Notes under the pieces: model-generated | What the model was told of the DNA's origin: nothing | The model's input: only the letters and a program-made list of their open reading frames with translations | Database searches by the model: none | In this document: in pieces, positions 1 to 45,540 of the stretch | Layout: each line of letters starts with the position of its first letter | Numbering within the stretch: the stretch's first letter is position 1 | Made by a program: the position numbers and the translations under genes | Origin: a virus | Length of the DNA: 45,540 nucleotides | IMG/VR virus record: IMGVR_UViG_3300048919_000583 | Coordinates: 1 to 45,540 of that record | Direction: 5' to 3' (one strand)

Positions 1-1503
1 ATGAAAATCCGTATTCCAGCCCTTAAGGTTCACCAGTGGCTCCCTGAATGGGACAAAGTCTCTTGGGATAGTCATCAGCATCGATCAGCTCCACCCAAAA
101 ACTTTATGGTTTTGTCGATGAAGGCTGGTGACTTACGACGCCTCTCCGCAATTTATCGTCGACAGGCGGAAGGGACTCCCCGGACAGAGGATCTTGGAAT
201 TCAGCGCCGCCATGATAAAAAGCGATCTGAAAATATCAAGCAGTTTGTCAAGTACGGATACCCCTATTGTGATCTTACTAAGCACAACCAAGAGTCAGGA
301 GATCACGAAACTCTGAGAAAGCCCGGCTGGCTTCCCACAGGCATCGTGATCAATATCCTCAAAGCTGGCGATACTCGAATGGAAAAGACGGTCGCTGAGG
401 ATGACTTGATAGATATTGTTGATATGAGCGATAAGCTCGCTGAACTGTCGTATTCGGAAAGTATGACAGCCGATGACTGGACACCTAGCGGCATCGCACC
501 AGTGGAAGTCATTGATGGTCAGCATCGACTTTGGGCGTTCGATGATTCGGATTTCGCACCAGACTTCGAAATGCCGGTTATCGCGTTTCATGGTCTTGAT
601 ATCAGTTGGCAGGCGTACTTGTTCTGGTCGATCAATATCAAACCAGTAAAAATCAATACGAGCTTAGCTTTTGATATGTATCCGCTTCTGCGAGCAGAGG
701 ACTGGCTGGAGAAGGAAGGGCATAAAGTCTATAAAGAGGCTAGAGCGCAAGAGCTTGTTGAAACACTGTGGATACATCCTGATAGCCCATGGAAAAACCG
801 CATTGATATGCTCGCGACACCCAACAATCCATATGTTCGGCAGGCTGCATGGATTCGAACGATTATTAGCTCGTTCATCAAGCCTGTTGACGCCAGAAAA
901 AGCTCGGGGGGATTGTTTGGCGAAATTAAGAATGCAAGCAGCGAGGTGTTGCCTTGGAACAGGGCGCAGCAAGCGGCATTTTTAATATATGTGGGCAAGG
1001 AGCTATGCTCAGAAGTTCGTAAATCTGATTCAGATTGGGCCAAAGTTCTGAGAGAAGATTGCGCACCTGACATGCTCGATCCGGATTTTGAGCCAGCGAT
1101 GTTTGGTAAGAAGACTTTCTTGAATACTGATCAGGGTATTCGTGCACTCTGGTTAGTCGTCAATGATATTTTCATTAGTCACTTGGGTGAGTGGAAGTTA
1201 TATGAGTGGCATCCGGTCGATGAATATGGGAATTGTTCCGAGGAAGTTATTTCCAGTGAACTAAAAAATATCGCCAGCCTACCTCTCGCGTCCGTTATTC
1301 ATAAACTTGCGCAAAGTCTCGCGTCGTTCGACTGGCGAACCTCGACTGCGCCCGGTCTAGAAAGAGAACAAATCAGCCTGCGTAAAGGGTTTAAGGGGAG
1401 TGGAGGGTACGTAGATCTAAAACGATTGATTTTAGAGCATATCGCAAGGGATGCGGTTGCACCGGAGATTTCTGAGGCCGCTGCTGCGGTGTTGAAGTTC
1501 TAA
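1..1503 (+). CDS. DGQHR-domain (DndB/ParB-like) protein, first gene of a putative defence cassette
   Basis: A 500-aa protein whose hallmark is the DGQHR motif at residues 172-176 in the context EVIDGQHRLWAF. This motif defines the DGQHR/DndB group, which shares the ParB/sulfiredoxin-type fold and is linked to DNA modification systems. An Arg/Lys-rich helix at about residues 69-83 precedes it. No nuclease or methylase motif is visible. The next gene starts 13 bases downstream, and an adenine methylase is the third gene of the same operon, so a role in sensing or controlling modified DNA is plausible but inferred. The ATG coincides with the window edge, so the true start could lie upstream. GC content looks well below that of the phage genes, suggesting transfer. 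Confidence 0.75.
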   Translation: MKIRIPALKVHQWLPEWDKVSWDSHQHRSAPPKNFMVLSMKAGDLRRLSAIYRRQAEGTPRTEDLGIQRRHDKKRSENIKQFVKYGYPYCDLTKHNQESGDHETLRKPGWLPTGIVINILKAGDTRMEKTVAEDDLIDIVDMSDKLAELSYSESMTADDWTPSGIAPVEVIDGQHRLWAFDDSDFAPDFEMPVIAFHGLDISWQAYLFWSINIKPVKINTSLAFDMYPLLRAEDWLEKEGHKVYKEARAQELVETLWIHPDSPWKNRIDMLATPNNPYVRQAAWIRTIISSFIKPVDARKSSGGLFGEIKNASSEVLPWNRAQQAAFLIYVGKELCSEVRKSDSDWAKVLREDCAPDMLDPDFEPAMFGKKTFLNTDQGIRALWLVVNDIFISHLGEWKLYEWHPVDEYGNCSEEVISSELKNIASLPLASVIHKLAQSLASFDWRTSTAPGLEREQISLRKGFKGSGGYVDLKRLILEHIARDAVAPEISEAAAAVLKF

Positions 1504-1516
1504 AAGGGGCAAAGGA

Positions 1517-2863
1517 ATGTTGGGCGCAGCAGAACAGTTAAAGTTCAATTTGGCTTCCCCGGGTAGCATAGTCAATGCCTTAAGTCGCGCGTCGGCTAAT
1601 TTTTCCTCTGATTCTTTCTTGGCTAGTGGCAACACCTATCAAGTTGGCGTCGGTGCATCGGTTAAAAACCTTATTGCAACAGCTAGCGGGCCTTTGCAGG
1701 CTCCGGAATTGGTGGAGTCGATTGCGGTTTCGTCCATCCTGCACTTGTATGACGGATGGTCGTATCTCTCACAAGCGCTTCGGGCGACATTTCGAAGTGA
1801 TGACTCCATCGCTCGTCACTTGGCTTATTACGGAGAGCTAAGGGCATCGCTTTCAATCCTGGCATCATATGGTGTGGGAGTCTTTAGCACTATACATGTG
1901 GTGGTCGATGCTGCTGAAAATGTGCACAAGTTCCATAAAGGTGGTACGCACCAAATTGCCTGGTCCGCCTTGGAGGCCTGGGGCAAGACACCCACTTCAG
2001 GAGCTTTGATAGGGTCAGAAATCCAAGCGTTTGGTCGCGATATGGCTGACTGGATTATGGCGTTCCAAGGGACATCAACTCCAAGTCTGATTGGTGCTGA
2101 TTGGGTTGAAAATTGGGGTATAGATCTGAGCTCGTTCTCATCAGACAGGTCAACGCGGAACGAGGTGTCTTATGGTGTCGATTTTGATCACACAAAGATT
2201 TGTCTCACGCCCAAAACTATCGAACCCTGGCTACGGGAACTCTGGTTAACTTCTGAGCCCGGAGGAGCCTCCTTCGAGCTACTAGACAGGTATTTAGTTC
2301 GCTCGACTCTTGAAGGTATTTATAATACAAAGTTCAAAGATCCCCTTCATACTCCAGAGCAGTCGGTGGACGATCTACGTGAAAAAATGCTAGATACCTG
2401 TCTAGCAATGGGGTTGGCCTCCGATGATATTGTGGACTTTTTCATTCGAGACACGTGTGAGGAAGATCTTCTGGTAATGAAGTTGGCTCGTTCACGCTCT
2501 GCAGTTCAGGATCCTCTTCAATATCAGGAAGTCATGTCTAGGACTTACCTTTTGTTAAGGTTAGCGACAGCATCCGTCAGCGCACTATTACGTAAAGCAA
2601 GCTTAAGCACGGATGATCTAGCATTTTGGTGGGTAAAAACTAGCGAGGCTTCGGGACTGTGGGACAGTGCTCTCGGACTGAAAACTGCAGAAGAAATCAA
2701 GGATCTCTGGGCTGATACCTCGCTGTCCTTGGATGAGCTAAGTGAGTGCATTGCCAATAATTCAGCCAGTGCAGATAGTTGGTTCTTTTTTAACGCTAAT
2801 ATATCGAAGGATCTAGAAAGTCTTTCTCGGGTGGAAAAAGTGGCTTTGTGGGGTATTTCGTGA
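1517..2863 (+). CDS. unrecognised 448-aa protein, second gene of the DGQHR-methylase cassette
   Basis: I do not recognise this family by name. The protein looks soluble and mostly helical, with no signal peptide or membrane segment. The stretch most like a conserved core is at about residues 78-130, around RHLAYYGELRASL (100-112), followed by a glycine-containing hydrophobic strand and HVVVDAAENVHKF. The C-terminal half is helical and acidic. I see no PD-(D/E)XK, HNH, PLD, Walker or clear HEPN RX4-6H motif. The ATG follows an AAAGGGGCAAAGGA ribosome site. It sits 13 bases after the DGQHR gene, and its stop overlaps the methylase start (GTGA), so the three are co-translated. It is the cassette's unknown component and therefore a candidate effector. 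Confidence 0.7.
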   Translation: MLGAAEQLKFNLASPGSIVNALSRASANFSSDSFLASGNTYQVGVGASVKNLIATASGPLQAPELVESIAVSSILHLYDGWSYLSQALRATFRSDDSIARHLAYYGELRASLSILASYGVGVFSTIHVVVDAAENVHKFHKGGTHQIAWSALEAWGKTPTSGALIGSEIQAFGRDMADWIMAFQGTSTPSLIGADWVENWGIDLSSFSSDRSTRNEVSYGVDFDHTKICLTPKTIEPWLRELWLTSEPGGASFELLDRYLVRSTLEGIYNTKFKDPLHTPEQSVDDLREKMLDTCLAMGLASDDIVDFFIRDTCEEDLLVMKLARSRSAVQDPLQYQEVMSRTYLLLRLATASVSALLRKASLSTDDLAFWWVKTSEASGLWDSALGLKTAEEIKDLWADTSLSLDELSECIANNSASADSWFFFNANISKDLESLSRVEKVALWGIS

Positions 2864-3669
2864 ACAGTGGCAGTGTACAGCCATTTTTGAAATGGGCCGG
2901 TGGGAAGCGTTGGCTAGTTGATAAACATATCAACTCTTTTCCGCGTGAGTTTAATGGTTATTTTGAGCCGTTTCTTGGCAGTGGAGCAGTGTACTTCTCT
3001 CTGATGCCAGAAAACGCTGTTCTGTCTGATCTTAACGAGAGTCTTGTTGATACTTACTGTGCTATTCGTGACGATTGGGAGCAAGTTTATAATGTTCTAA
3101 AACGCCATCATAGTCAGCATTCTGCGGAGTATTATTACAAGGTTAGGTCCTCAAAGCCGCGTACGCCACATACCAAAGCAGCGCAGTTTATTTATCTTAA
3201 TCGCACCTGCTGGAATGGACTGTATCGAGTCAACCTGAACGGCGATTTCAATGTTCCTGTAGGTACAAAGAAAAATGTCATTCTTGACACAGATGACTTT
3301 GCGGCAGTCTCGAAAATGTTAGGTTCGACAGAGATCAACGTTTGCGATTTTGAGGAAACAATCGACAGGGCGGGGCGGGGCGATTTGATCTTCGCGGATC
3401 CTCCTTATACCGTAAAACATAACTTCAACGGATTTGTGAAGTACAACGAAAAGATATTTAGCTGGCAGGATCAAGAGCGGCTCAGTGAAGCGCTCATTAG
3501 AGCCTCAGCCCGTGGCTGTTTCATCGTTTCCACTAACGCTCATCACCCTGCGGTCGTCGATCTGTATCAAGAGTTCACACTCCAGTCGCTAGATCGCTCG
3601 AGCGTAATAGCTGGCTCCGTGGCTGGTCGTGGTCGTTATGCCGAATTGTTCATTACTAACTTTTCCTAA
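2860..3669 (+). CDS. Dam/DpnII-type DNA adenine-N6 methyltransferase
   Basis: A 269-aa class-alpha (D12) adenine methylase. The N-terminal FLKWAGGK (about residues 9-16) and the PFLGSG loop (37-42) bind S-adenosylmethionine. The catalytic motif IV is DPPY at 180-183. Length and motif order match Dam and M.DpnII, so the product should methylate adenine in a short palindrome, possibly GATC; the target is inferred. I chose the GTG at 2860 because it overlaps the previous stop as GTGA and has GGGG six bases upstream; a GTG at 2848 is also in frame. It could be the self-protecting modification arm of the cassette. It differs clearly from the second prophage methylase at 39489-40283. Confidence 0.88.
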   Translation: MNSGSVQPFLKWAGGKRWLVDKHINSFPREFNGYFEPFLGSGAVYFSLMPENAVLSDLNESLVDTYCAIRDDWEQVYNVLKRHHSQHSAEYYYKVRSSKPRTPHTKAAQFIYLNRTCWNGLYRVNLNGDFNVPVGTKKNVILDTDDFAAVSKMLGSTEINVCDFEETIDRAGRGDLIFADPPYTVKHNFNGFVKYNEKIFSWQDQERLSEALIRASARGCFIVSTNAHHPAVVDLYQEFTLQSLDRSSVIAGSVAGRGRYAELFITNFS

Positions 3670-7324: not shown

Positions 7325-7909
7325 CTAAGCAGCGTGCGCAGCGGGAGTCGCCAGCGCTGCCAAATGAAGGATGGATTCGCAGACGTCCCGGTACATCTGC
7401 ACGTCGCTGCCCGAGACGGTGAAGCACTTGGTCCGTGGGCTTTTGACGCCGATGCTCAGAATGACGGTGACACCCTTGCGCGTTCGGGTGCGGTGAACGG
7501 CCAGACGAATCGGCAGTTCAAACCCGAGATCCAGATCGAGGAAACCGCCCAGACACACCACACCAAACACCTGCTCGCGCTGTTGGGCGCTGAAGGCTCC
7601 GAACACGCGCTCGGCGTGTCGTGGTGGAGCCAGCTCGGCGTTAGGATCGATTGGGCCGTTGGCGATTTCTTCGATGAAGTCAGCCAGCTTCAAGTGGGCT
7701 TTCTTGTCGTTGGCCAGGGTCAGCGTGTGGCGTTCGCTGCCGACCTCGACAACAAAAGTAGTGTCTGCTGGGGTGCGATCAACCTTCAGCCGAAGCTTCA
7801 ACGCTGTGCGCTGTGGTGAGTTGCGCAGAGTGTGGTGGAAGGTTTCGCTCAGGTTGACCTGAGCCTTGAGCAACTGCAGCGTGCGGTTGTCGACTCTGAA
7901 CTTGCTCAT
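7325..7909 (-). CDS. hypothetical early phage protein (194 aa)
   Basis: A 194-aa cytosolic protein that I do not recognise. It alternates beta-rich segments (TALKLRLKVDR, TTFVVEVGSERHTLTL, GVTVILSIGVKSP) with short helices and has no membrane segment. It overlaps the end of the next upstream gene by four bases (7906-7909), so it belongs to the leftward early operon under the 8118-8160 operator region. Nothing links it to a known activity. Confidence 0.55.
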   Translation of the reverse strand: MSKFRVDNRTLQLLKAQVNLSETFHHTLRNSPQRTALKLRLKVDRTPADTTFVVEVGSERHTLTLANDKKAHLKLADFIEEIANGPIDPNAELAPPRHAERVFGAFSAQQREQVFGVVCLGGFLDLDLGFELPIRLAVHRTRTRKGVTVILSIGVKSPRTKCFTVSGSDVQMYRDVCESILHLAALATPAAHAA

Positions 7910-8082: not shown

Positions 8083-8117
8083 GGTTTGCCTCGCTCTGTG
8101 GTGAAAGAGTTCGGCAA

Positions 8118-8160
8118 ATATCAACTGGTGGTTGTGATATGTCAACAACTATAGGTTGAT
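8118..8160. promoter_or_regulatory. left operator region for the prophage repressor
   Basis: Four half-sites resembling those at the cro operator cluster here: ATCAAC (8120-8125), a GTTG (8131-8134), GTCAAC (8141-8146) and GTTGAT (8155-8160). They form two imperfect dyads upstream of the leftward early operon, and the helicase-nuclease gene starts to the right. The half-sites match the perfect palindrome at 11538-11554, which suggests that one repressor controls both promoters, like OL and OR in lambda. Binding is inferred. Confidence 0.6.
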
Positions 8161-8254
8161 TATTGGTGCGAGATTAAGACTGATAGCGTATGGACATCCT
8201 CCTCGCCTGAGTTTACGTTCCCAGCCACCACATCAGAAAAAGGATGAACTGACC

Positions 8255-10747
8255 ATGATAGATTTCACGCGCATTGGAACGGGTGTAACAGTTGATACCG
8301 TCCTGCAACCTAGAGAAATTTTCAACGCGTTACCTAAAAAAAATGCCCATAAGTTTCAATATCCTCGTGATGTCCAGTCTCAGGTGTGGTCAAAATGGTT
8401 TGAACGTCGTAATGAGAATAGCTTAGTTCTTAAGTTGAATACTGGAAGCGGGAAAACTGTAGTTGGCCTGTTAGCATTAAAAAGCTGCATAAACGAAGGA
8501 AAGTTCCCCGCTGTATATATATGTCCAGATCCCTATCTTGTAAAACAGGTTATGGACGCTGCGGAAGAGTTAGGCGTTGAAGTTACAGATGATGTGCACT
8601 CGCATCGGTTTATCTCCGGAAAAGCTATTCTAATAGCAAATATATTCAAGTTGGTGAATGGCCGATCAGCGTTTGGTGTTGGAGATGAAGGAGTAAAAAT
8701 AAAAATTGCAAGCTTGGTTGTAGATGATGCGCATGCATGCATCGGTTATGTTGAAGAACAGTTTACGGCGGAAATTCCGCATGAGAGTGCTGCCTACACT
8801 GCATTATATGAGTTGTTTAAGGAATCGTTGCATAATCAATGTGAGTCAAAAGCGCTGGAGGTGGAAAGTGGTAATACAGCTGCTTTGATGCAAGTCCCTT
8901 ATTGGGTGTGGCAAAGTAAGATTTCAGAAGTATGTAGAATTTTGATTGCGCACAAAAAAGAAGATTTCTTACAGTTTGTTTGGCCTTTGATAAAAGAGTT
9001 CCCTAAGCTGAGTCATTGTGTGGTTGGTGCGAAGAGTATTGAAATAACTCCTCATGCAATTCCTATTCATATGATCCCAAGCATCATTGATGCTGAACGA
9101 AAATTATTCATGACTGCTACGCTTGTAGATGATTCTATATTGGCTAGTCATTTTGGAGTGAATGAGAAGTTCCTGAAGCATCCGATTGTCCCTGATTCGG
9201 CGGGTGATGTTGGCGATCGAATGATATTGCTCCCACAGGTGATAAATTCCGATTTCGCCGATGATCATATAAAAAAGTACTGCAAGTTTATTGCTGAATA
9301 TATGAATGTTGTGGTTATTGTTCCATCAAAAGCGCGAGCTGATTACTGGAGAGATAGCGCCAACTTGGTTCTTTTTGCGAATAATCTTTATGAGGGTGTC
9401 GATAAGCTGAAGGCTGGTAAAGTAGGTCTTGTCGTACTTGTTAATAAATACGATGGGATTGATTTGCCAGGGGATGCTTGCAGGTTATTAGTAATTGATG
9501 GATTCCCGGATGTGCGTAGTAAGATTGACAGGATCAATCAAACTGTTCTGCTGGGAAGCGATCGTGACGTAAACCAGATAATTCAGCGTGTTGAGCAAGG
9601 GATGGGGCGCGGGGTCAGGTCGAATGATGATTATTGTGTAGTATTTTTAATGGGGAGAGATCTGACCAGTAAGCTATATGCGCAAGGTGCTTTGAATAAG
9701 TTTTCTCCAGGTACTAGGGCGCAGTTGACCTTGTCTGAACAAGTTTCTGAGCAAATTAAAGGAAAGAAGCTGTCGGAAATTACAGATACATTAAATTATT
9801 GCTGGGCGAGAAAGGAAGAGTGGGTTGCGGCGAGTAAAGGAGTGCTTGCAACACTAGCGTATGCTCATGAAAACACTCTAGACTCTAATATTATTTCCCT
9901 CAGAAAAGCGTATGATTTTGCTTGTAATAGTAACTATGCGGCGGCGGCAAAAGAGTTGAAAGATTTGGTTAATGGAGTGTCTGATCTAAAATTCAGAGGC
10001 CTAGTTAAGCAGCATTACGCCGAGTATACTAATTTGTCAGATCTCGCCTCTGCTCAAAAGATTCAACTGTCGGCGGTGGGCGATAATCGAAGACTTCTTA
10101 AGCCTATTGAGGGCATTCAATATCACAAGATATCCGGAGCTGTTCTCGATCAAGCCAAAGCATGTAGCGAGTTCTTGACAGAGAGCTTTCAAGATCCGAA
10201 TAAGCTGGTTGTCGAAATTAATGGAGTGTTGGAGGGGCTAGATTTCAAGCTTGACAGCTCTGAACTGTTCGAAGCAAGGATGAAAGAGGTTGCTAGATAT
10301 TTGGGTTTCCGCAGTCAACGCCCGGAGCAAGAGTACCAAAAGGGGCCTGACGTTTTGTGGAAGACTGGTGAGCTAAACTACTTTGTGATTGAGTGTAAAA
10401 ACGAGGCGGTGGTTGAGACTATAAGCAAGTACTACTGTAATCAGCTCAACGGTTCTTGTGAGTGGTTTGAGGATCGCTACGATCACTCGAGCAGTTATAC
10501 TCCAGTTTTGGTTCATCCGTATTCGTTGTTCGAGTACTCTGCCTCGCCAAATCAAAATATTCGGGTTATGACTCGGGAAAAGCTAGGCGAATTTAGAGAG
10601 GCGGTTCGTCAATTTATCAGCTCTGTCGCTAGCAGTAATGAATTGGGAGATGCAGTTGCAATCAGGCAAAAGTTGATTGCGGCGCAGCTAAGAGCGTCTG
10701 ATTTCTGTGATAAATATACCGTTCCCTTCAAGGTGAAAACGCGTTAA
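8255..10747 (+). CDS. SF2 helicase fused to a PD-(D/E)XK nuclease, putative superinfection defence
   Basis: An 830-aa protein with two visible parts. The helicase has Walker A TGSGKT (63-68), motif II DDAH (157-160), motif III TAT (287-289) and motif VI QGMGRGVR (448-455). The last is reminiscent of DinG/XPD-type and other SF2 enzymes. After a helical linker (about 500-650), the C-terminus carries GPDVLW (about 697-702) and ECKNE (713-717) behind an acidic helix, the arrangement of a PD-(D/E)XK nuclease with D699, E713 and K715. It lies between the left operator and the repressor, facing the repressor, which is the position of rexAB in lambda. GC is clearly low. I start it at the ATG at 8255 (AAGGA ribosome site). 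Role as anti-phage protein is inferred. Confidence 0.8.
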   Translation: MIDFTRIGTGVTVDTVLQPREIFNALPKKNAHKFQYPRDVQSQVWSKWFERRNENSLVLKLNTGSGKTVVGLLALKSCINEGKFPAVYICPDPYLVKQVMDAAEELGVEVTDDVHSHRFISGKAILIANIFKLVNGRSAFGVGDEGVKIKIASLVVDDAHACIGYVEEQFTAEIPHESAAYTALYELFKESLHNQCESKALEVESGNTAALMQVPYWVWQSKISEVCRILIAHKKEDFLQFVWPLIKEFPKLSHCVVGAKSIEITPHAIPIHMIPSIIDAERKLFMTATLVDDSILASHFGVNEKFLKHPIVPDSAGDVGDRMILLPQVINSDFADDHIKKYCKFIAEYMNVVVIVPSKARADYWRDSANLVLFANNLYEGVDKLKAGKVGLVVLVNKYDGIDLPGDACRLLVIDGFPDVRSKIDRINQTVLLGSDRDVNQIIQRVEQGMGRGVRSNDDYCVVFLMGRDLTSKLYAQGALNKFSPGTRAQLTLSEQVSEQIKGKKLSEITDTLNYCWARKEEWVAASKGVLATLAYAHENTLDSNIISLRKAYDFACNSNYAAAAKELKDLVNGVSDLKFRGLVKQHYAEYTNLSDLASAQKIQLSAVGDNRRLLKPIEGIQYHKISGAVLDQAKACSEFLTESFQDPNKLVVEINGVLEGLDFKLDSSELFEARMKEVARYLGFRSQRPEQEYQKGPDVLWKTGELNYFVIECKNEAVVETISKYYCNQLNGSCEWFEDRYDHSSSYTPVLVHPYSLFEYSASPNQNIRVMTREKLGEFREAVRQFISSVASSNELGDAVAIRQKLIAAQLRASDFCDKYTVPFKVKTR

Positions 10748-10749
10748 GA

Positions 10750-10777
10750 ATAGTGGGTCATTCAGGGATGAATGATC
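10750..10777. terminator. hairpin shared by the convergent helicase-nuclease and repressor genes
   Basis: GGGTCATTC and GAATGATCC form a near-perfect stem (one G-T pair) in the ten-base gap and the 3' end of the repressor gene. There is no T-run. The placement between two converging stops suggests a bidirectional terminator or attenuator. Confidence 0.3.
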
Positions 10778-11489
10778 CAACCACCTTGCCGCAGATGTGC
10801 GTTTCCTCCGTAATATCAATGATTGGATATTGCGGGTTGATCGGCCTAAGGAATTGTCGACCAGCATCTTCTACCAATATTTTGAAGGTTGCTTCATTTG
10901 TGCGTGGCACTCTTGCAATTACTCGGTCCCCTGTCTTTGTTTCAGCTTCAGGATCTACAAAAATGATACATCCTGTTGGGTAGCTGCGCCCAGGTCCTGG
11001 ATTGGTCATTGAGTCACCGAGAACCTTCAAGGCATATCCATGGTCGCTTATCGGAACCGGGCACGACAACCAAGAGTCGCTATCATAGTTCTCAATGTTA
11101 GAGATCGCCTCGCACCAAGCCCCGGCCTGAACCCAAGAGATCAATGGAACCTTGCCAAAGCGATGATTGATTTCACTAACGTTGCTCAAGTCACTAGGGG
11201 CTAGAGCGTGAACGTTGCTATGGCCAATCTGCTCTTTCGGCAGAACCCCGTACTCAAGCCATTCCCGCCTGACACCAAGCCATGAGCAGAGGGCAGACAT
11301 ACTATCCGCCTCAGCCATCGATTCGCCATTCAGCCATTTACTGATGGCCTGGGTTGTTTTATCAACACCCACGCTTTTCAACTGACGATGAATATCCACT
11401 CCACGACCACGGGCGCGTACGCCAGCATCGTCGAGGGCTTCGTGTAGGCGCTCGCTGAAAGCTGCGCGGAGAGAGTTTTTATCAACCAT
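10758..11489 (-). CDS. CI-like prophage repressor (HTH plus S24/LexA autoprotease)
   Basis: A 243-aa repressor. The N-terminal XRE-type helix-turn-helix spans about residues 5-75 (GVDKTTQAISKWLNGES). The C-terminal S24 domain shows cleavage site A122-G123 in WVQAGAW, catalytic S160 in GDSM and K203 in ATFK. RecA-stimulated self-cleavage after DNA damage would therefore induce the prophage. It is divergent from the Cro-like gene, across an operator with a perfect palindrome at 11538-11554, and convergent with the helicase-nuclease gene. Confidence 0.93.
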   Translation of the reverse strand: MVDKNSLRAAFSERLHEALDDAGVRARGRGVDIHRQLKSVGVDKTTQAISKWLNGESMAEADSMSALCSWLGVRREWLEYGVLPKEQIGHSNVHALAPSDLSNVSEINHRFGKVPLISWVQAGAWCEAISNIENYDSDSWLSCPVPISDHGYALKVLGDSMTNPGPGRSYPTGCIIFVDPEAETKTGDRVIARVPRTNEATFKILVEDAGRQFLRPINPQYPIIDITEETHICGKVVGSFIPE

Positions 11490-11524
11490 GAGTTGAGAGT
11501 CTCATAGGAGTTGCGCAATAGTCA

Positions 11525-11554
11525 GTTGATCTATAACATCAACCGAAAGTTGAT
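11525..11554. promoter_or_regulatory. right operator (repressor/Cro binding sites)
   Basis: The palindrome ATCAACCGAAAGTTGAT occupies 11538-11554, with half-sites ATCAAC/GTTGAT and a 5-base spacer. A third half-site, GTTGAT (11525-11530), precedes it. It lies in the divergent gap between the repressor and Cro-like genes, where both promoters must be. The Cro-like gene has GGAGG at 11559-11563. Confidence 0.7.
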
Positions 11555-11568
11555 AAGTGGAGGTTGTC

Positions 11569-11829
11569 ATGTTGGACCCCGCAGATTTTCCGAGCGCAGT
11601 TGCGTTTGCGTTTGAAGCCGTAGGCGGCATCGGGGCCGCTGCGAAGGTATGCAATAGAAGCTACCAAGCACTCAACAAATGGCGTCAGGCGGCATGCCTG
11701 CCACGAACGGATTACACAGGTGAAACCAAATACGCCGAGCTGTTAGCGACTGCTGCGAAGCAGAAAGGCAACGCATTCCAAGCGGCTTGGCTGTTGAACG
11801 CTTCGGCTCCACAAAAAGCTGCAGCGTAG
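11569..11829 (+). CDS. Cro-like / YdaS-type regulator
   Basis: An 86-aa protein, divergent from the repressor. The segment VAFAFEAVGGIGAAAKVCNRSYQALNKWRQ is a helix-turn-helix like those of YdaS/Cro-type proteins. It probably represses the lysogenic promoter at the 11525-11554 operator during lytic growth. The ATG at 11569 follows GGAGG by five bases; an in-frame GTG at 11557 is less likely because it precedes that ribosome site. Confidence 0.75.
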   Translation: MLDPADFPSAVAFAFEAVGGIGAAAKVCNRSYQALNKWRQAACLPRTDYTGETKYAELLATAAKQKGNAFQAAWLLNASAPQKAAA

Positions 11830-12676: not shown

Positions 12677-12893
12677 CATTGCGGATTTTGCCAACGATCT
12701 GGTGCAAGAGCGCCTTGATCAAGCGCTCGCGGCGCGTCAGTTGTTGAGACCTGAGCTGGCGGCGCATTCCTTCCTCATCTGCGAAGACTGCGACGGTCCT
12801 ATTCCCGAAGCGCGCCGCTTGGCGCAGCCGGGTTGCACCATGTGTGTGACCTGTCAGGAGATCGATGATGTGCGGAGGGCCCGCCATGCTTGA
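12669..12893 (+). CDS. TraR/DksA-type C4 zinc-finger protein
   Basis: A 74-aa protein with the TraR pattern CEDC...IPEARRL...GCTMCVTCQ; zinc ligands are probably C38, C41, C59 and C62. TraR/DksA proteins bind the RNA polymerase secondary channel and change promoter use without DNA contact. The short N-terminal helix (ADIADFANDLVQERLDQAL) is typical. The start overlaps the CII-like gene and the end overlaps the primase gene, so it is tightly coupled in the early operon. Confidence 0.85.
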   Translation: MADIADFANDLVQERLDQALAARQLLRPELAAHSFLICEDCDGPIPEARRLAQPGCTMCVTCQEIDDVRRARHA

Positions 12894-15105
12894 TGAGGTC
12901 CTGGGGCAGTTCGCCGATTACGGCCTGGAGCCCGCGCAGCCGTTGGTGTTCGGTAAGCTCACCCGCTGCAAAACGGCGCAGGATAAGGGCAAGGAGAAAA
13001 ACGGTTGGTATGTGGTGCATGAGCACTACACCGAGAAGGGCGAAACCCTGATCTTTGGCAGCTTTGGCGACTGGCGTTCGGGTGTGACGCAGAAGATCAA
13101 GATCAAACCCGGGCGGATGAGTGCCGAGGAGCGTGAGGTGATGCGCGCGCGGCAGGAAGAGGCGAAACGCCGTGCGGCGGAGGTCGCCGCCAATGCAGCG
13201 CGTCGTGCGGCAAAGCGTGCCGCCGGGTTGTTCAAGCGTATGCCGGAGAAGGGCAAGAGCACCTACCTGGACCGCAAGCAAGTGGTGGGCTTCGGGGTGC
13301 GCTATGCGCCGCGCTCGGGTGCGTTCCTGGTGCCCATGAGCAACGTACGCGACCAGATCGTCGGCTTACAGGTGATCTATCCCGAAAAGCAGGAAGACAC
13401 CGGGCGCGACAAATCCTACTGGCCCTATGGTTTGTCCAAAGAGGGCGCTTTCCACCTGATCGGTCCCCAACCTGAGCCCGGCGATCCGGTGCTGGTGTGT
13501 GAGGGCTACGCCACCGGCGCCAGCCTGCATATGGCAACCTCGCTGACCGTGGCCATCGCCTTTGATGCGGGCAATCTCATGCCGGTGTGCAAGGCGATGC
13601 GTGAGCGCTTTGCCGGGTGCCCGATCATCGTTTGTCGAGATGATGACTGGAAGACCAAGCGGGCCAACGGTGAGCCCTGGAACCCCGGCAGAGAGCGTGC
13701 TGAAAACGCGGCAACGGTGGTCGGCGGCCAGGTGGTGGCGCCGATCTTCTCCGGCGAGCGGGAGATCAAGTGGACCGACTTCAACGACCTGCACTGCGCC
13801 GAAGGTTTGGAGGCAGTGCGTCGTCAGGTGCTGGCGGTGGTCAGGCCACCCGCCGCGGGCGGCTGGCGGGATCAGTTGGCCCGAAGTGACAGCGGCATGC
13901 TGATCGCGCACATGCAGAACGTTGAGCTGATCCTGAGCAACGATGAGCGCTGGGCCGGGGTGATTGGCTTCTGTTCGTTCAGTGCCAAGATCGTCAAGCT
14001 GCGGGTACCGCCCTATGGCGGCGACACCGGCGACTGGGCCGACATCGACGACATGCTGGTGATGAAGTGGCTCGCGCAGCAGTACAACCTCCGGGTTAAG
14101 GTCGGCAACGTGATCGAGGCGGTGAGCGTGGTGGCGCACTATCGAGCGTTTCACCCGGTACGCAATTACCTGCGTGGCCTTGAGTGGGACCGCGTGCCCC
14201 GGCTCGATTTCTGGCTCACCGAGATCATGGGCGTGGAACCGACCGACTACAGCTCAAAGGTCGGCAAGCGCTGGATGGTTTCGGCGGTGGGCCGGGTGAT
14301 GGCGCCGGGGTGCAAGGCGGACTCGGTGATGATTCTGGAAGGTGCACAGGGCGCTGGTAAGTCGACGGCGATGAGCATTCTCGGCGGTTCGTGGTTTATG
14401 GATACGCCATTCACCCTGGGCGACAAGGATGCGTTCCAGGCGATCCGGGGCAAGTGGATCATCGAACTGGGCGAGCTGGACAGCTTCAACAAGGCCGAGT
14501 CGACCAAGGCCAAGCAGTTCTTCTCGGCCTCGGTGGACACCTACCGCGAGAGCTACGGCCGCAGAACCATGGATGTGCCACGCCAGTGTGTTTTCGTGGG
14601 CACCACCAACCAGGATGAGTACCTCAAGGACGCCACCGGCAACCGGCGTTATTGGCCGGTGGCTTGCACCAAGGTCGACCTGGAGCAACTGCGACAGATC
14701 CGCGACCAGCTCTGGGCCGAGGCGATGTTCTGCTATCAGGCTGGCGATATCTGGTGGGTGATTCGCGACGAAGCGCCGTTGTTCGCCGAGGCGCAGGAAG
14801 AGCGCTTTGTGGTGGATGAGTGGGAGGTGCCGATTCTGAAGTGGCTGGAAGAGTCGCACCTGGGGGAGACCACCACCGGCAGCCAGATCCTGTCCGAGGT
14901 TCTGAAGATCGATCCCAGTCACTGGGGGAAGCCGGAGCAGATGCGTGTGGGTGCGATCATGCATCGGCTGGGGTGGCGCAAGAGGCGTATGCCGGCGTTG
15001 GCGAAGAGTGGTATACGCCCCTGGGCCTATCAGAAGCCGACCAACTGGGGGCGCGGATCTGCCTTACAGGTGGCGCCGATGGAGGAGGAGCCTTGCTTTG
15101 ATTAA
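12886..15105 (+). CDS. TOPRIM-VapE replication protein (primase/SF3-like helicase)
   Basis: A 739-aa replication protein. The N-terminal half has a TOPRIM-type region (VCEGYATGAS about 204-213, CRDDDW about 250-255). The C-terminal half is a virulence-associated-E (VapE) ATPase with Walker A GAQGAGKST (about 486-494), a following acidic GELD and the sensor VGTTNQDEYLKDATGNRRYWP. It would prime and unwind phage DNA at its origin. The ATG at 12886 follows GGAGG by eight bases and overlaps the TraR-like stop. It also overlaps the Q-like gene by eight bases. Confidence 0.9.
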   Translation: MLDEVLGQFADYGLEPAQPLVFGKLTRCKTAQDKGKEKNGWYVVHEHYTEKGETLIFGSFGDWRSGVTQKIKIKPGRMSAEEREVMRARQEEAKRRAAEVAANAARRAAKRAAGLFKRMPEKGKSTYLDRKQVVGFGVRYAPRSGAFLVPMSNVRDQIVGLQVIYPEKQEDTGRDKSYWPYGLSKEGAFHLIGPQPEPGDPVLVCEGYATGASLHMATSLTVAIAFDAGNLMPVCKAMRERFAGCPIIVCRDDDWKTKRANGEPWNPGRERAENAATVVGGQVVAPIFSGEREIKWTDFNDLHCAEGLEAVRRQVLAVVRPPAAGGWRDQLARSDSGMLIAHMQNVELILSNDERWAGVIGFCSFSAKIVKLRVPPYGGDTGDWADIDDMLVMKWLAQQYNLRVKVGNVIEAVSVVAHYRAFHPVRNYLRGLEWDRVPRLDFWLTEIMGVEPTDYSSKVGKRWMVSAVGRVMAPGCKADSVMILEGAQGAGKSTAMSILGGSWFMDTPFTLGDKDAFQAIRGKWIIELGELDSFNKAESTKAKQFFSASVDTYRESYGRRTMDVPRQCVFVGTTNQDEYLKDATGNRRYWPVACTKVDLEQLRQIRDQLWAEAMFCYQAGDIWWVIRDEAPLFAEAQEERFVVDEWEVPILKWLEESHLGETTTGSQILSEVLKIDPSHWGKPEQMRVGAIMHRLGWRKRRMPALAKSGIRPWAYQKPTNWGRGSALQVAPMEEEPCFD

Positions 15106-22173: not shown

Positions 22174-23493
22174 ATGTCTTTAGTCACACAACTACGTAGC
22201 GAACGCGCCCGGCTCAACGGCGAGATCCAGGCACTGGCCAAGATCGAAGCCGACGGTGGTTCGCTGTCTGTCGAGCAGCTCGCTCAGTTCACTCAGCTCG
22301 GGGCCGAATTCAATGCCCTGGGCGACAAGCTCGCTCGCGCCGAGTCGGCCGAACGTGTCGCCGCGGCCAGTGCGACACCGGTCGAGGAGGGTGCTCAAGG
22401 CATCAACGGGCCGCCCCGTGTCGCTGGGCCCTATGCAGCCAAGCCTGTCCCTGGGGCCAACATGGCGCAAATGGTGCGGGTACTGGCCGCCACTCGGGGC
22501 GATCAGTACGCCGCGGCCAAGATGGCTCACGACTCCGGAATGAACCCCGAAATTGCTATGGCCCTCAGCACTGTGACTCCGGGGGCTGGCGGTGTACTGG
22601 TGCCGCAGGGCTTCTCCAGCGAGGTGATCGAACTGCTGCGACCGAAGTCGGTGGTGCGCAGCATGGGTGCGGTTTCGCTGCCGCTGCAGAACGGCAGCCT
22701 GACTATTCCGCGCATCAAGGGCGGGGCAATCGTCGGCTATATCGGCAGTGAAGAGGACATGCCCGCCACCGGCATGCAGTTCGATGACCTCAAGCTGTCG
22801 GCGAAAAAGCTGGCTGCGTTGGTGCCCATCAGCAACGACCTGTTGAGCTACTCGGGCGTAAACCCGAATGTGGATCGTCTGGTGGTGAACGACCTGACCA
22901 GCGCTGTGGGCCTGGCCGAGGATCTCTCTTTCCTGCGAGGTGCCGGCACCGGCAACCTGCCCAAGGGGCTGCGGTTCTGGGCGCCTGCTTTCAACGTGTT
23001 TGATGCACCCACTGATCAGACTCTCGCTGCTGTCGAGCTGGCGCTTTCCGCCCTGATCCTGCGGCTGGAAAACGCCAACTCCAACATGCTGGCGCCGGGG
23101 TTTGTGATGGCGCCTCGTACCAAGCGCTGGCTGTCGGCGCTGCGTGTTGGTGACGACGGCAAGGGTGCCAAAGCCTATCCGGAGCTGGAAGAAGGCAAGC
23201 TCAAAGGCTTCCCGGTGGCGACTACCACGCAAGTGCCGATCAACCTGGGGGCTGGCGGTGATGAGTCGGAAATCCATTTTGCTGACTTCGCCGACTGCTT
23301 CATTGGTGAGGATGATGCGATGGTCATCGACTTCAGCAAGGAGGCTACCTACAAGGATGCCGGCGGCAACCTGGTGAGCGCTTTCCAGCGGGACCAGACC
23401 CTGGTGCGTGTGATTGCCAAGCACGACTTCGGCCCACGTCATGTCGAGTCGGTAGCGGTCATGACCAAGGTCAAATGGGGCAGCACCCTTTAA
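22174..23493 (+). CDS. HK97-fold major capsid protein
   Basis: A 439-aa major capsid protein. Residues about 1-110 are a helical delta/scaffold domain (LVTQLRSERARLNGEIQALAKIEAD). The coat domain follows: TPGAGGVLVPQGFSSEVIELLRPKSVVRSMGA is the classical HK97 N-arm, and MAPRTKRWLSALR and LKGFPVATTTQVP are later conserved blocks. Processing by the adjacent S49 protease is expected between the two parts. AGGAGG precedes the ATG at 22174. Confidence 0.94.
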   Translation: MSLVTQLRSERARLNGEIQALAKIEADGGSLSVEQLAQFTQLGAEFNALGDKLARAESAERVAAASATPVEEGAQGINGPPRVAGPYAAKPVPGANMAQMVRVLAATRGDQYAAAKMAHDSGMNPEIAMALSTVTPGAGGVLVPQGFSSEVIELLRPKSVVRSMGAVSLPLQNGSLTIPRIKGGAIVGYIGSEEDMPATGMQFDDLKLSAKKLAALVPISNDLLSYSGVNPNVDRLVVNDLTSAVGLAEDLSFLRGAGTGNLPKGLRFWAPAFNVFDAPTDQTLAAVELALSALILRLENANSNMLAPGFVMAPRTKRWLSALRVGDDGKGAKAYPELEEGKLKGFPVATTTQVPINLGAGGDESEIHFADFADCFIGEDDAMVIDFSKEATYKDAGGNLVSAFQRDQTLVRVIAKHDFGPRHVESVAVMTKVKWGSTL

Positions 23494-41542: not shown

Positions 41543-42451
41543 CTAAAAATCTGACCGAATGTCTGTCGCGTCTAGAGAATCATGATCCTGGAAAGTATCT
41601 GCTGCAGGGTTATCCTCATGATCGTGCCAGTCGCCCGTGTCAACTATCAACGAATCTTCGACGAACTCCAGCGCCTCAGGATCTGGATTTGCCGCTTCAC
41701 AGGTCAATTCGCAGGTGTATTCGAAGGATTCATCCAGTTCGGCTCCATCGCCTCTTCTGAAATCAGAGTTGGATCCCCACTGCAATGTCACGCCCAGGCT
41801 ACCGCTTACTTTGATATGCACGGTCTCCGAGGTGATACAGGTAACCTCGTGCGAATCCACATAGATTTGCTCGAGAGAATAGTGCGTGGCTAGCTCGTCA
41901 ACACCGTCCAAACTTTCCCCGACAATCTGCTGAACCGTTGCATCAGTGATCGCACTTGATAAGCGATCTCCGACGGCGGCTCTGCATTCCTGAATGCAGG
42001 CCATCAGAACGGCCACGGCTTCGATTGTTTCCTGTGCGAGGTGCTCGATGTCGTCGTCTTCCAACTGGAAAACTTCCGGTGTGATGTGGACGTACCCGTT
42101 CAAACGGGTTACGGCATCTCGAAGCTCATTGAACTCTTGAGCGAAGTCCAACCGGAGTTTTGTCCGCACGTAGTGATTGGAAAGTCCTCCCTGCGTTGCA
42201 TACACACACCGCTCGACTCGCGTTACCTGCGGGACAACACCTTCTGCCTTCTGCTGCCACCATATGCACTTTTTCACCTCGGCATCTGGAGCAAGGCGCT
42301 TCAGAGTGTGGCCCACCAGCTCGCGCATAGCGAAGGCGAAGTTATGAAAGCGCAGCCTGTTCCTGCGGTCTTCGAGGTTCAATATCGCAGCTTCGTACAG
42401 CTCACGCTCGAACTGAGCATCACCGATTAGCTGCAAAATCCTCTCGTCCAT
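41543..42451 (-). CDS. acidic protein of unknown function, second right-end cargo gene
   Basis: A 302-aa cytosolic protein. The N-terminal part (LEDRRNRLRFHNFAFAMRELVGHTLKRLAPDAEVKKCIWWQ, then VYATQGGLSNHYV and LRLDFAQEFNELRDAVTRLNGYVHI) looks like a conserved domain. It reminds me of families annotated as pPIWI-associating nuclease domains, but I cannot confirm that. The last about 80 residues are strongly acidic and Asp/His-rich. I start at the third Met (42451), because GGAG lies six bases upstream; earlier ATGs exist at 42463 and 42475. Placed beside the HEPN-like gene at the prophage right end, it could be defence cargo. Confidence 0.6.
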   Translation of the reverse strand: MDERILQLIGDAQFERELYEAAILNLEDRRNRLRFHNFAFAMRELVGHTLKRLAPDAEVKKCIWWQQKAEGVVPQVTRVERCVYATQGGLSNHYVRTKLRLDFAQEFNELRDAVTRLNGYVHITPEVFQLEDDDIEHLAQETIEAVAVLMACIQECRAAVGDRLSSAITDATVQQIVGESLDGVDELATHYSLEQIYVDSHEVTCITSETVHIKVSGSLGVTLQWGSNSDFRRGDGAELDESFEYTCELTCEAANPDPEALEFVEDSLIVDTGDWHDHEDNPAADTFQDHDSLDATDIRSDF

Positions 42452-42614
42452 ATTCTTCTCCATGTTGGCGATCATTCAGGATCATCTCTCAGAGCGGGGA
42501 TAGAAGTCACCTGAAAGCAAAGTAGAAGGATGTTGACGCTTCATGCGGGTCACCCCGGTGGGCACCAGCGGCAGCCTTGGGTCGTTAACAGTCTCGCGTT
42601 TAGATACAGTAGAA

Positions 42615-42992: not shown

Positions 42993-43046
42993 GGATTGCA
43001 AATCCGCCTACGCCGGTTCGATTCCGACCTCGGCCTCCACCCTTGA
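42993..43046 (+). other. att site: tRNA-Cys 3' half (attR of main prophage / attL of remnant)
   Basis: 42993-43039 reads as the 3' 47 bases of a tRNA-Cys: anticodon loop TTGCAAA (42996-43002, anticodon GCA), T-arm GGTTCGATTCC and acceptor CTCGGCC-T-CCA. No matching 5' half (GGCCGAG) lies upstream, so it is a fragment, not a gene. The bases 43001-43046 recur perfectly at 45495-45540. This is the classic product of integration into a tRNA 3' end. Confidence 0.85.
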
Positions 43047-43049
43047 AAA

Positions 43050-43079
43050 CCCCGTAGATTAACGTCTACGGGGTTTTTT
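43050..43079. terminator. intrinsic terminator after the att core
   Basis: CCCCGTAGA-TTAACG-TCTACGGGG, a perfect nine-pair stem, followed by six T on the plus strand; on the minus strand it is followed by four T. It can end both tRNA-side and integrase-remnant transcripts. Confidence 0.8.
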
Positions 43080-43116
43080 ACTGCCTGTATGAAAGTGCTG
43101 GCGTACCAAAACTTTC

Positions 43117-43966
43117 CTATTTCGTCGGGTTTGCGATGGCGCCAACTCGAACGTAAATCTTCTTTGTGGTCTCCTGTTTTGAGTGTCCGAGAAGCCGGCT
43201 CGCGTCGTCCAGGTCGAGAATTTCAGATGCCGCCTTCGGTCGGATATCACGGAACTGAAACCCTGCGATTTTCTTAGCCAGGCCCTGGTCGCCTTGTTCG
43301 ATAGCCTCAGCCACGGCTTTTGACCTGGGCGTCGTCCCATCTCTGGCATAGCATGCGCTCGGAGACCTTCTTCCCCGACTTGCTCACGATCAAATAGCCA
43401 GAGTTTATTTTTTTCGGTCTGGCAATAATTCTCTCGATGAGCAGGCCCAAGCTATTTTTCTGGCCATCGACCTCCATGAGGATTCGGATCTTCTTGGAAG
43501 TCTTGCCTTGGCCAACGCGCAGATACACTCCCTCCACATCATCGACACGCATTAGTCGGACATCGGCTGGGCGCTGGCCGGTCAGGTAGGCCAGATCCAT
43601 TGCCTCCTGCAGTTCAATTTCGCCTTTCTGGTAGACCGCCTTCCATACCGCGTCGTTTGCGTAATAGTCGCGCGGCGTTTCCTTGTTCTTACGAACGCCC
43701 TGGCAGGGGGTCTCTCTGTTGGTCAAACCCCATTCGCGCGCAATATTGAAGACGTGAGACAGTAAGGCGATTTCTCTGTTGGCTCTGGTTTTCGCGGATC
43801 GCTTATCGCGATAGGCAGCAATCATCGATGGCGTAATCGCATCCACCGGTATCTCGTCAAAAACTGGCCTTAGCTGCCTCAATTCGGCCTTGTTGTCCTT
43901 CTGAGTGCGCTCCGACTTTTTCGGGATGATGTCGCGCATGTACCTATGGGTCTTCCTTGGGCGCAT
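43117..43966 (-). pseudogene. integrase pseudogene of the remnant element
   Basis: A relative of the intact integrase at 3760-4824, sharing blocks such as NREIALLSHVF, NKETPRDYYA, LAYLTGQRPADV, FRDIRPKAASEI and LLGH. Two lesions are visible. After MRPRKTH the sequence jumps to RYMRDIIPKK, lacking about 70 N-terminal residues (the arm-binding domain). At about 43312 an extra A in GTCAAAAGCC (AAA would restore the frame) shifts the C-terminal 65 codons, which carry the catalytic R, H and Y, out of frame. It is therefore inactive. The gene ends 70 bases from the att core. Confidence 0.9.
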
Positions 43967-44985: not shown

Positions 44986-45540
44986 ATGAACAGGCCTGTG
45001 CCTCCCCTCTCACTGCTTGAGCTAACCGATTTGTCCGACTTCGGTACCCTACGCATCAATCTGCCGGCAGCTACCAGCGGCTGGCTGCTCAGGGTGACCC
45101 GCATCACCTCGAACCAGAACAACAACAAAATTGCCGACATCATGCAGATCGCGGGTTTCACCGAGGTCATCGATGCAAAGCTGCGCTACCCGAACACCGC
45201 GCTGCTCTACATCGAGTTCTCGGCCGAGCAGTTCCGTAGCATCCCAGCCGTCACAGTGGAGACCAAGCTGAAGAGGGTTCTTGTGCCGGCCAACTACAAC
45301 CCTGTGGCTAGGACCTACTCCGGTATCTGGGACGGTAGCTTCAAGTTGGCCTGGACTGACAACCCAACCTGGATGACCTACGACATCACTGTCAGTGACC
45401 GCTTCGGTCTAGGCCGCCGCATCAAGCCGTGGATGGTGGACAAGTGGGAGCTCTACCGGATCTCCCAGTATTGCGACCAACTGGTACCGGACGGAATCCG
45501 CCTACGCCGGTTCGATTCCGACCTCGGCCTCCACCCTTGA
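44986..45540 (+). pseudogene. fragment of a lambda J-like tail tip protein ending in the att site
   Basis: A 184-codon reading frame. Its core (GWLLRVTRITSNQNNNKIADIMQIAGFTEVIDAKLRYPNTALLYIEF, VPANYNPVARTYSGIWDGSFKLAWTDNPTWMTYDI, RFGLGRRI, DKWELYRISQYCDQLVPDG) matches an internal part of the lambda gpJ central tail fibre, which is normally over 1000 residues. Both ends are lost. After VPDG the frame enters the att core and ends by chance 14 residues later. It shows that the remnant came from a siphovirus-type prophage, unlike the main contractile phage. The ATG has GGTGAG upstream, but expression would be meaningless. Confidence 0.85.
45495..45540 (+). other. second copy of the att core (attR of the remnant)
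   Basis: A perfect 46-base direct repeat of 43001-43046, containing the tRNA-Cys T-arm and acceptor with CCA. Identity begins just after the anticodon, so strand exchange lies in or near the anticodon stem-loop. The match may continue beyond the window. Confidence 0.9.

Follow-up and report, generated by a model that had tools for sequence, protein, structure and literature searches.

The closest described system is Hna (helicase-nuclease abortive infection), whose studied member, listed as SMa2245 (PMC12445080), resides on the megaplasmid pSymA of S. meliloti. This protein is a 3'-5' single-stranded DNA exonuclease that ATP keeps in an inactive dimer until a phage single-stranded-DNA-binding protein (SSB) releases it, the outcome being abortive infection (PMC13381803). 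Its nuclease activity is abolished by the K729A substitution, triple substitution of the loop residues T30, D31 and P34 yields the published dimer mutant, and the monomer and dimer are represented by the PDB entries 10UJ and 9YKJ (PMC13381803). Prophage-borne exclusion genes adjoining a cI-type repressor gene are exemplified by lambda rexAB and by RexAB of P. putida; rexAB systems consist of two genes downstream of cI, which encode a DNA-binding sensor and a membrane effector and no helicase-nuclease (PMC12894663). Prophage defence hotspots are also already known, including those of P2/P4 and the cI-integrase hotspot of Vibrio phages, which are fixed prophage sites holding interchangeable defence systems (PMC9122126).

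The DNA analysed here, called the window throughout, is a virus record of 45,540 bases, and the gene under study occupies positions 8255..10747 on the plus strand. Its reading frame is intact, with 830 residues and no internal stops, and begins with an ATG preceded by AAGGATGA. The product combines an N-terminal SF2 (DinG/XPD-like) helicase, covered by the Pfam domains DEAD, ResIII and Helicase_C_2, with a C-terminal PD-(D/E)XK nuclease. The motifs named by the original prediction were all recovered, and its description of a single-gene helicase-nuclease in the immunity region of a prophage is correct. The motifs are Walker A NTGSGKT (8438..8458, plus strand; residues 62-68, including K67), DDAH (residues 157-160), TAT (residues 287-289), SF2 motif VI QGMGRGVR (9596..9619, plus strand; residues 448-455), and the nuclease active site GPD...ECK (10343..10399, plus strand), in which GPD at residues 697-699 and ECK at 713-715 supply D699, E713 and K715. 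Among 20 diverse family members aligned, K67, D157, D158, D699, E713 and K715 are invariant, as are G64, G66 and T68 of Walker A and Q448, G449, G451, R452 and R455 of motif VI.

Judged by sequence and predicted fold, the gene belongs to the Hna family, an already described system, and is referred to below as hna. The PADLOC model PDC-S28 (PDLC04986), a candidate label without function that apparently denotes the same family, matches residues 1-827 with 1042 bits, and its sister model PDLC04987 scores lower, at 374 bits. The pairwise alignment with S. meliloti Hna spans residues 1-826 (29% identity, 375 bits), and the sole strong PDB sequence match, to an entry labelled helicase, spans residues 12-821 with 382 bits; the entries matched include 10UJ and 9YKJ, and the matched protein sequence is 100% identical to part of pSymA from strain 1021. 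An AlphaFold model built from relatives (pLDDT 86, pTM 0.82) follows the cryo-EM structure of the Hna monomer, 9yhn, over its whole length (TM 0.91/0.92, 2.4 A). The next-best fold family, DinG, is far lower at a TM of about 0.36; DinG, CasDinG and XPD helicases share the helicase fold at TM values of about 0.35-0.40 and are distant proteins with other domain content. Domain order, length (830 residues in the window, 845 in S. meliloti), all helicase motifs and the PD-(D/E)XK triad likewise agree with S. meliloti Hna, and since K715 aligns with the catalytic K729, the nuclease chemistry of the two proteins should be the same.

The original prediction had matched the gene to no named defence system and had presented it as new unless a known defence gene proved to match; the known Hna family does match, in PADLOC, in PDB sequence, in pairwise alignment and in fold, and the idea of a new family was rejected in favour of a new member within a known system. 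The distinction from ZorD was borne out: Zorya ZorD shows no full-length homology, only its nuclease part matching, at 14 bits, and no HamAB or Nhi model is among the matches up to E 1. Searches with Pfam, PADLOC and PHROG returned only helicase, nuclease and Hna-type matches.

Within the family, the window protein stands at some distance from its studied relative. In a tree of 37 proteins it falls in a 17-member clade (SH-aLRT 100) apart from that of S. meliloti Hna. Two related records carry full-length copies of the gene, at 98% and 93% identity, as the window itself does; beyond these three prophage copies, the closest relatives come from Legionella plasmid and viral-contig sequences, at an identity of about 50%, and other relatives were found on plasmids and an integrative conjugative element. 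Genome contigs scanned with a single protein as query gave no matches. One relative (L159:8986-11475) lies beside genes that read, from their sequence, as P2-type portal/terminase-like, and this site may be the known P2 hotspot. Another (L007:4001-6535) is carried by the lactococcal plasmid pMRC01, which confers abortive infection; this relative could be the determinant of that phenotype.

The difference from S. meliloti Hna is clearest in the HEL1 dimer loop. Residues T30, D31 and P34, which belong to the S. meliloti protein and are not a known hallmark of the family, are not conserved in the alignment in window Hna or its clade: the loop reads ATDKGP in S. meliloti and NAHKFQYPRD in the window, and it is variable across the window clade, so that both autoinhibition and trigger may differ. 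On this comparison of residues, the switch of window Hna may not be that of S. meliloti Hna. A tentative version of the explanation preferred here would have this Hna relative defend, with a trigger or an autoinhibitory contact unlike that of S. meliloti Hna; the separate, fully supported clade (17 rows), the divergent loop and an overall identity of 29% point in that direction, although the fold matches throughout (TM 0.91), all catalytic motifs are kept, and a dimer is still possible with a different loop sequence.

The surroundings of hna are those of a lambda-type immunity region. The left operon begins with a gene of unknown function (7325..7909, minus strand; phrog_15582). Between this gene and hna lies a pL-like promoter, TTGACA-17-GATATT (8117..8145, minus strand), which points away from hna. 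Exact copies of CAAC-N5-GTTG flank its -35 box, forming the left operators OL1, CAACTGGTGGTTG (8122..8134), and OL2, CAACTATAGGTTG (8146..8158), the latter on the hna side of pL. Beyond hna lies the gene of a cI-type repressor with an S24 peptidase (10758..11489, minus strand), convergent with hna and separated from it by 10 bases between the stop codons. Around the cI-cro interval, the right operator region (11483..11552) contains two exact copies, at 11483 and at 11540, and a third with a single mismatch at 11516. The rightward operon then opens with the gene of a cro-like regulator (11557..11829, plus strand), which weakly matches phrog_35, transcriptional repressor. Two further exact copies occur elsewhere in the window, at 22833 and 26910, and a shuffled window is expected to contain 0.6 copies on average. 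The window also encodes an integrase, excisionases, a CII-like regulator and a terminase. Both the placement of the gene between left operator and repressor gene and its AT-richness (42.5% GC against 57.3% in the remainder of the window) are as first described.

Lambda rexAB is co-transcribed with cI, and the original prediction had noted that genes in this position are typically expressed in the lysogen. The positional half of this analogy stands, as hna does occupy the OL-cI interval, and the expression half fails: rexAB is read downstream of cI, whereas hna lies on the opposite strand, diverging from pL and converging on cI. A rex-type operon with cI was rejected on strand, and owing to this orientation, expression in the lysogen is not inferable from position. 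The search for a strong promoter 5' of hna gave a best score of 8/12, which many shuffles matched.

The gene occupies a slot whose content is exchanged between related phages. The backbone of MT837188 matches that of the window up to position 8146 and again from 10760, with an unrelated 603-residue gene in the slot; the stretch between these conserved blocks (8147..10759, plus strand) is the cargo cassette, and the first gene of the left operon is the left anchor of the slot. Through this anchor gene, related phages were gathered as 80 of the 315 viral contigs found and 62 Pseudomonas genome loci, and about 130 non-redundant loci entered the slot survey. In empty slots the repressor stop is about 195-300 bp from the left gene, and the cI stop is about 20-45 bp from OL2; in filled slots the former distance is 0.8-3.8 kb, with cargo inside. 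The cargoes fall into roughly 40 clusters of unrelated, AT-rich genes, with a GC content of 41.8% against 57.5% in the flanking gene and a lower value in 98% of the cargo ORFs. The operators are kept whatever the cargo (OL1 in 42 and OL2 in 41 of 49 same-type loci, with at most one mismatch). One surveyed locus, L060, probably shows no cargo but a variant of the backbone, in which an antirepressor-like ORF overlaps the anchor gene.

Among the 40 cargo representatives scanned, 24 have PADLOC matches at E 1e-6 or better, although some of the ATPase matches may be superfamily-level only; these are Septu, PDC-M01, AbiTii, PDC-S59, NsnA, PDC-S20, SIR2-type, PDC-M34, AriAB-like, PD-T7-3, retron RT, DRT UG17, DRT5, CBASS cyclase, PDC-S21, OLD-like, Lamassu and type II methyltransferase. 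None of the 10 backbone proteins of the window scanned was matched. The interval between OL2 and cI is a prophage hotspot, which holds unrelated defence genes, or nothing, in related phages. It resembles the P2/P4 and Vibrio hotspots in being a fixed site for interchangeable systems, and the Vibrio one also in bordering cI, but those belong to other phage groups with other anchors (PMC9122126), whereas this slot is delimited by OL2 and the 3' end of cI. A literature search, with most subscription papers outside its scope, found no description of this slot.

The remaining 16 of the 40 scanned cargo proteins have no match in the defence library. The cargoes at L018:6887-8662, L121:6906-8669, L027:7598-8692, L035:5169-6149, L015:7676-8686 and L013:7357-8727 are without a PADLOC match, and that at L009:4905-6716, outside the PADLOC scan, has a VEIKG-type nuclease-like motif; these seven are candidate unknown defence genes. 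The cargo at L022:6871-8667, again without a PADLOC match, carries NACHT and SNaCT13 domains and is likely a bacterial NACHT defence protein.

The survey also bears on whether hna serves the phage itself. A helicase-nuclease might be thought to act in replication or recombination of its own phage, given its two domains and DinG-like helicase fold, yet such a role is most improbable: most sister phages of the same backbone have unrelated genes or nothing in place of hna, the gene is read away from the pL operon and towards cI, it is AT-rich relative to the backbone, its relatives reside on plasmids and an integrative conjugative element, and the phage already has a primase-helicase at 12865-15105. 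That hna is a decaying passenger without function is equally improbable; it is AT-rich, apparently imported, and no strong promoter was recognised, but it has been kept full-length in all three related records with every catalytic residue in place. The gene is very likely anti-phage, and the reading adopted here is that it probably encodes an Hna-family abortive-infection protein, an interchangeable defence cargo of a lambda-type Pseudomonas prophage.

Use of the slot differs with the type of repressor. Repressors from 142 loci (L010-L151) were clustered at 50% identity, with orientation taken from the longest cargo ORF. With the window repressor type, 39 of 52 slots are filled and 13 empty, and the longest cargo ORF runs opposite to cI in all 39. 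A second type (cluster 1) has 35 filled slots and a single empty one, with cargo in the cI direction in 19 and opposite in 16, and across three further types just one slot in 42 is filled. Occupancy differs between repressor types with p = 1e-20 and orientation with p = 2e-8 (Fisher tests), values which overstate the evidence because the surveyed loci share ancestry; as many cargoes are mutually unrelated, descent of the cargo alone is an unlikely cause of the orientation rule. The same counts speak to the notion that hna is a rex-like gene expressed with cI and tuning the lysis-lysogeny switch. The position between OL and cI is that of lambda, and cluster 1 of this very phage group has 19 of 35 cargoes in the cI direction, but hna, like all 39 cargoes of its repressor type, is on the strand opposite to cI, and the Pfam, PADLOC and PHROG searches, with their helicase, nuclease and Hna-type matches, showed no relation to RexA or RexB, so that this notion is barely credible. 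A wider proposal, that immunity type dictates how the slot is used as a site for defence cargo, is possible and on balance doubtful: cargo of the window type would always face cI, perhaps driven from beside OL2 under repressor control, three other types would be essentially without cargo, and Hna would be one cargo among others, from a clade with altered autoinhibition.

For the Hna protein as defence cargo, a working sequence of events can be proposed. A promoter within the cassette would drive production of Hna in the lysogen, independently of both pL and the cI transcript, and ATP would keep the protein inactive. When an unrelated phage begins replication and makes the trigger protein, which in S. 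meliloti is an SSB, inhibition would be lost, the 3'-5' single-stranded DNA exonuclease would act, and the infected cell would die or stall with no phage released. ATP inhibition, exonuclease activity and abortive infection are suggested by analogy with published Hna work, and phage protection and its trigger are likewise presumed. Expression in the lysogen is the weakest step, as no promoter stands out and position does not settle the matter. The PF00436 SSB family was sought in the window and 49 related records and is absent from all 50, although this model would miss a T7 gp2.5-type SSB. By that route Hna should therefore not be triggered by its own prophage; as the related records also lack the family, the absence is nothing special to the Hna carrier and makes the backbone compatible with Hna cargo.

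Other parts of the window contain further features. An exact 46-nt direct repeat at 43001-43046 and 45495-45540 resembles a tRNA 3' end and is probably an attachment site. Close to it, a second integrase (43059-43966), apparently truncated by its Pfam match, resembles the MT837188 integrase in DNA and is perhaps a remnant of another element. A predicted pPIWI-associating nuclease (41543-42475; Pfam pP_pnuc_1, pP_pnuc_2) near the right end is possibly more cargo. At the left end, a weak DndB-like match (1-1503) and a Dam-family methyltransferase (2848-3669) lie in a region, 1-3669 outside the integrase, that is possibly a modification island.

The window gene is a phage-borne addition to a family whose studied member is plasmid-borne, and its divergent dimer loop offers a natural test of how Hna stays inactive and what triggers it. 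The slot is worth more than the gene: across Pseudomonas prophages, this short and well-delimited interval accommodates roughly 40 gene families, among which known defence systems are numerous. A hotspot beside cI has a precedent in Vibrio phages, and the surprising part is this slot, with occupancy and orientation that follow the repressor type, a feature that also sets it apart from the P2/P4 and Vibrio sites. The cargoes that matched nothing in the defence library are candidate new defence genes, and the association of cargo with repressor type poses a regulatory question that can be tested.
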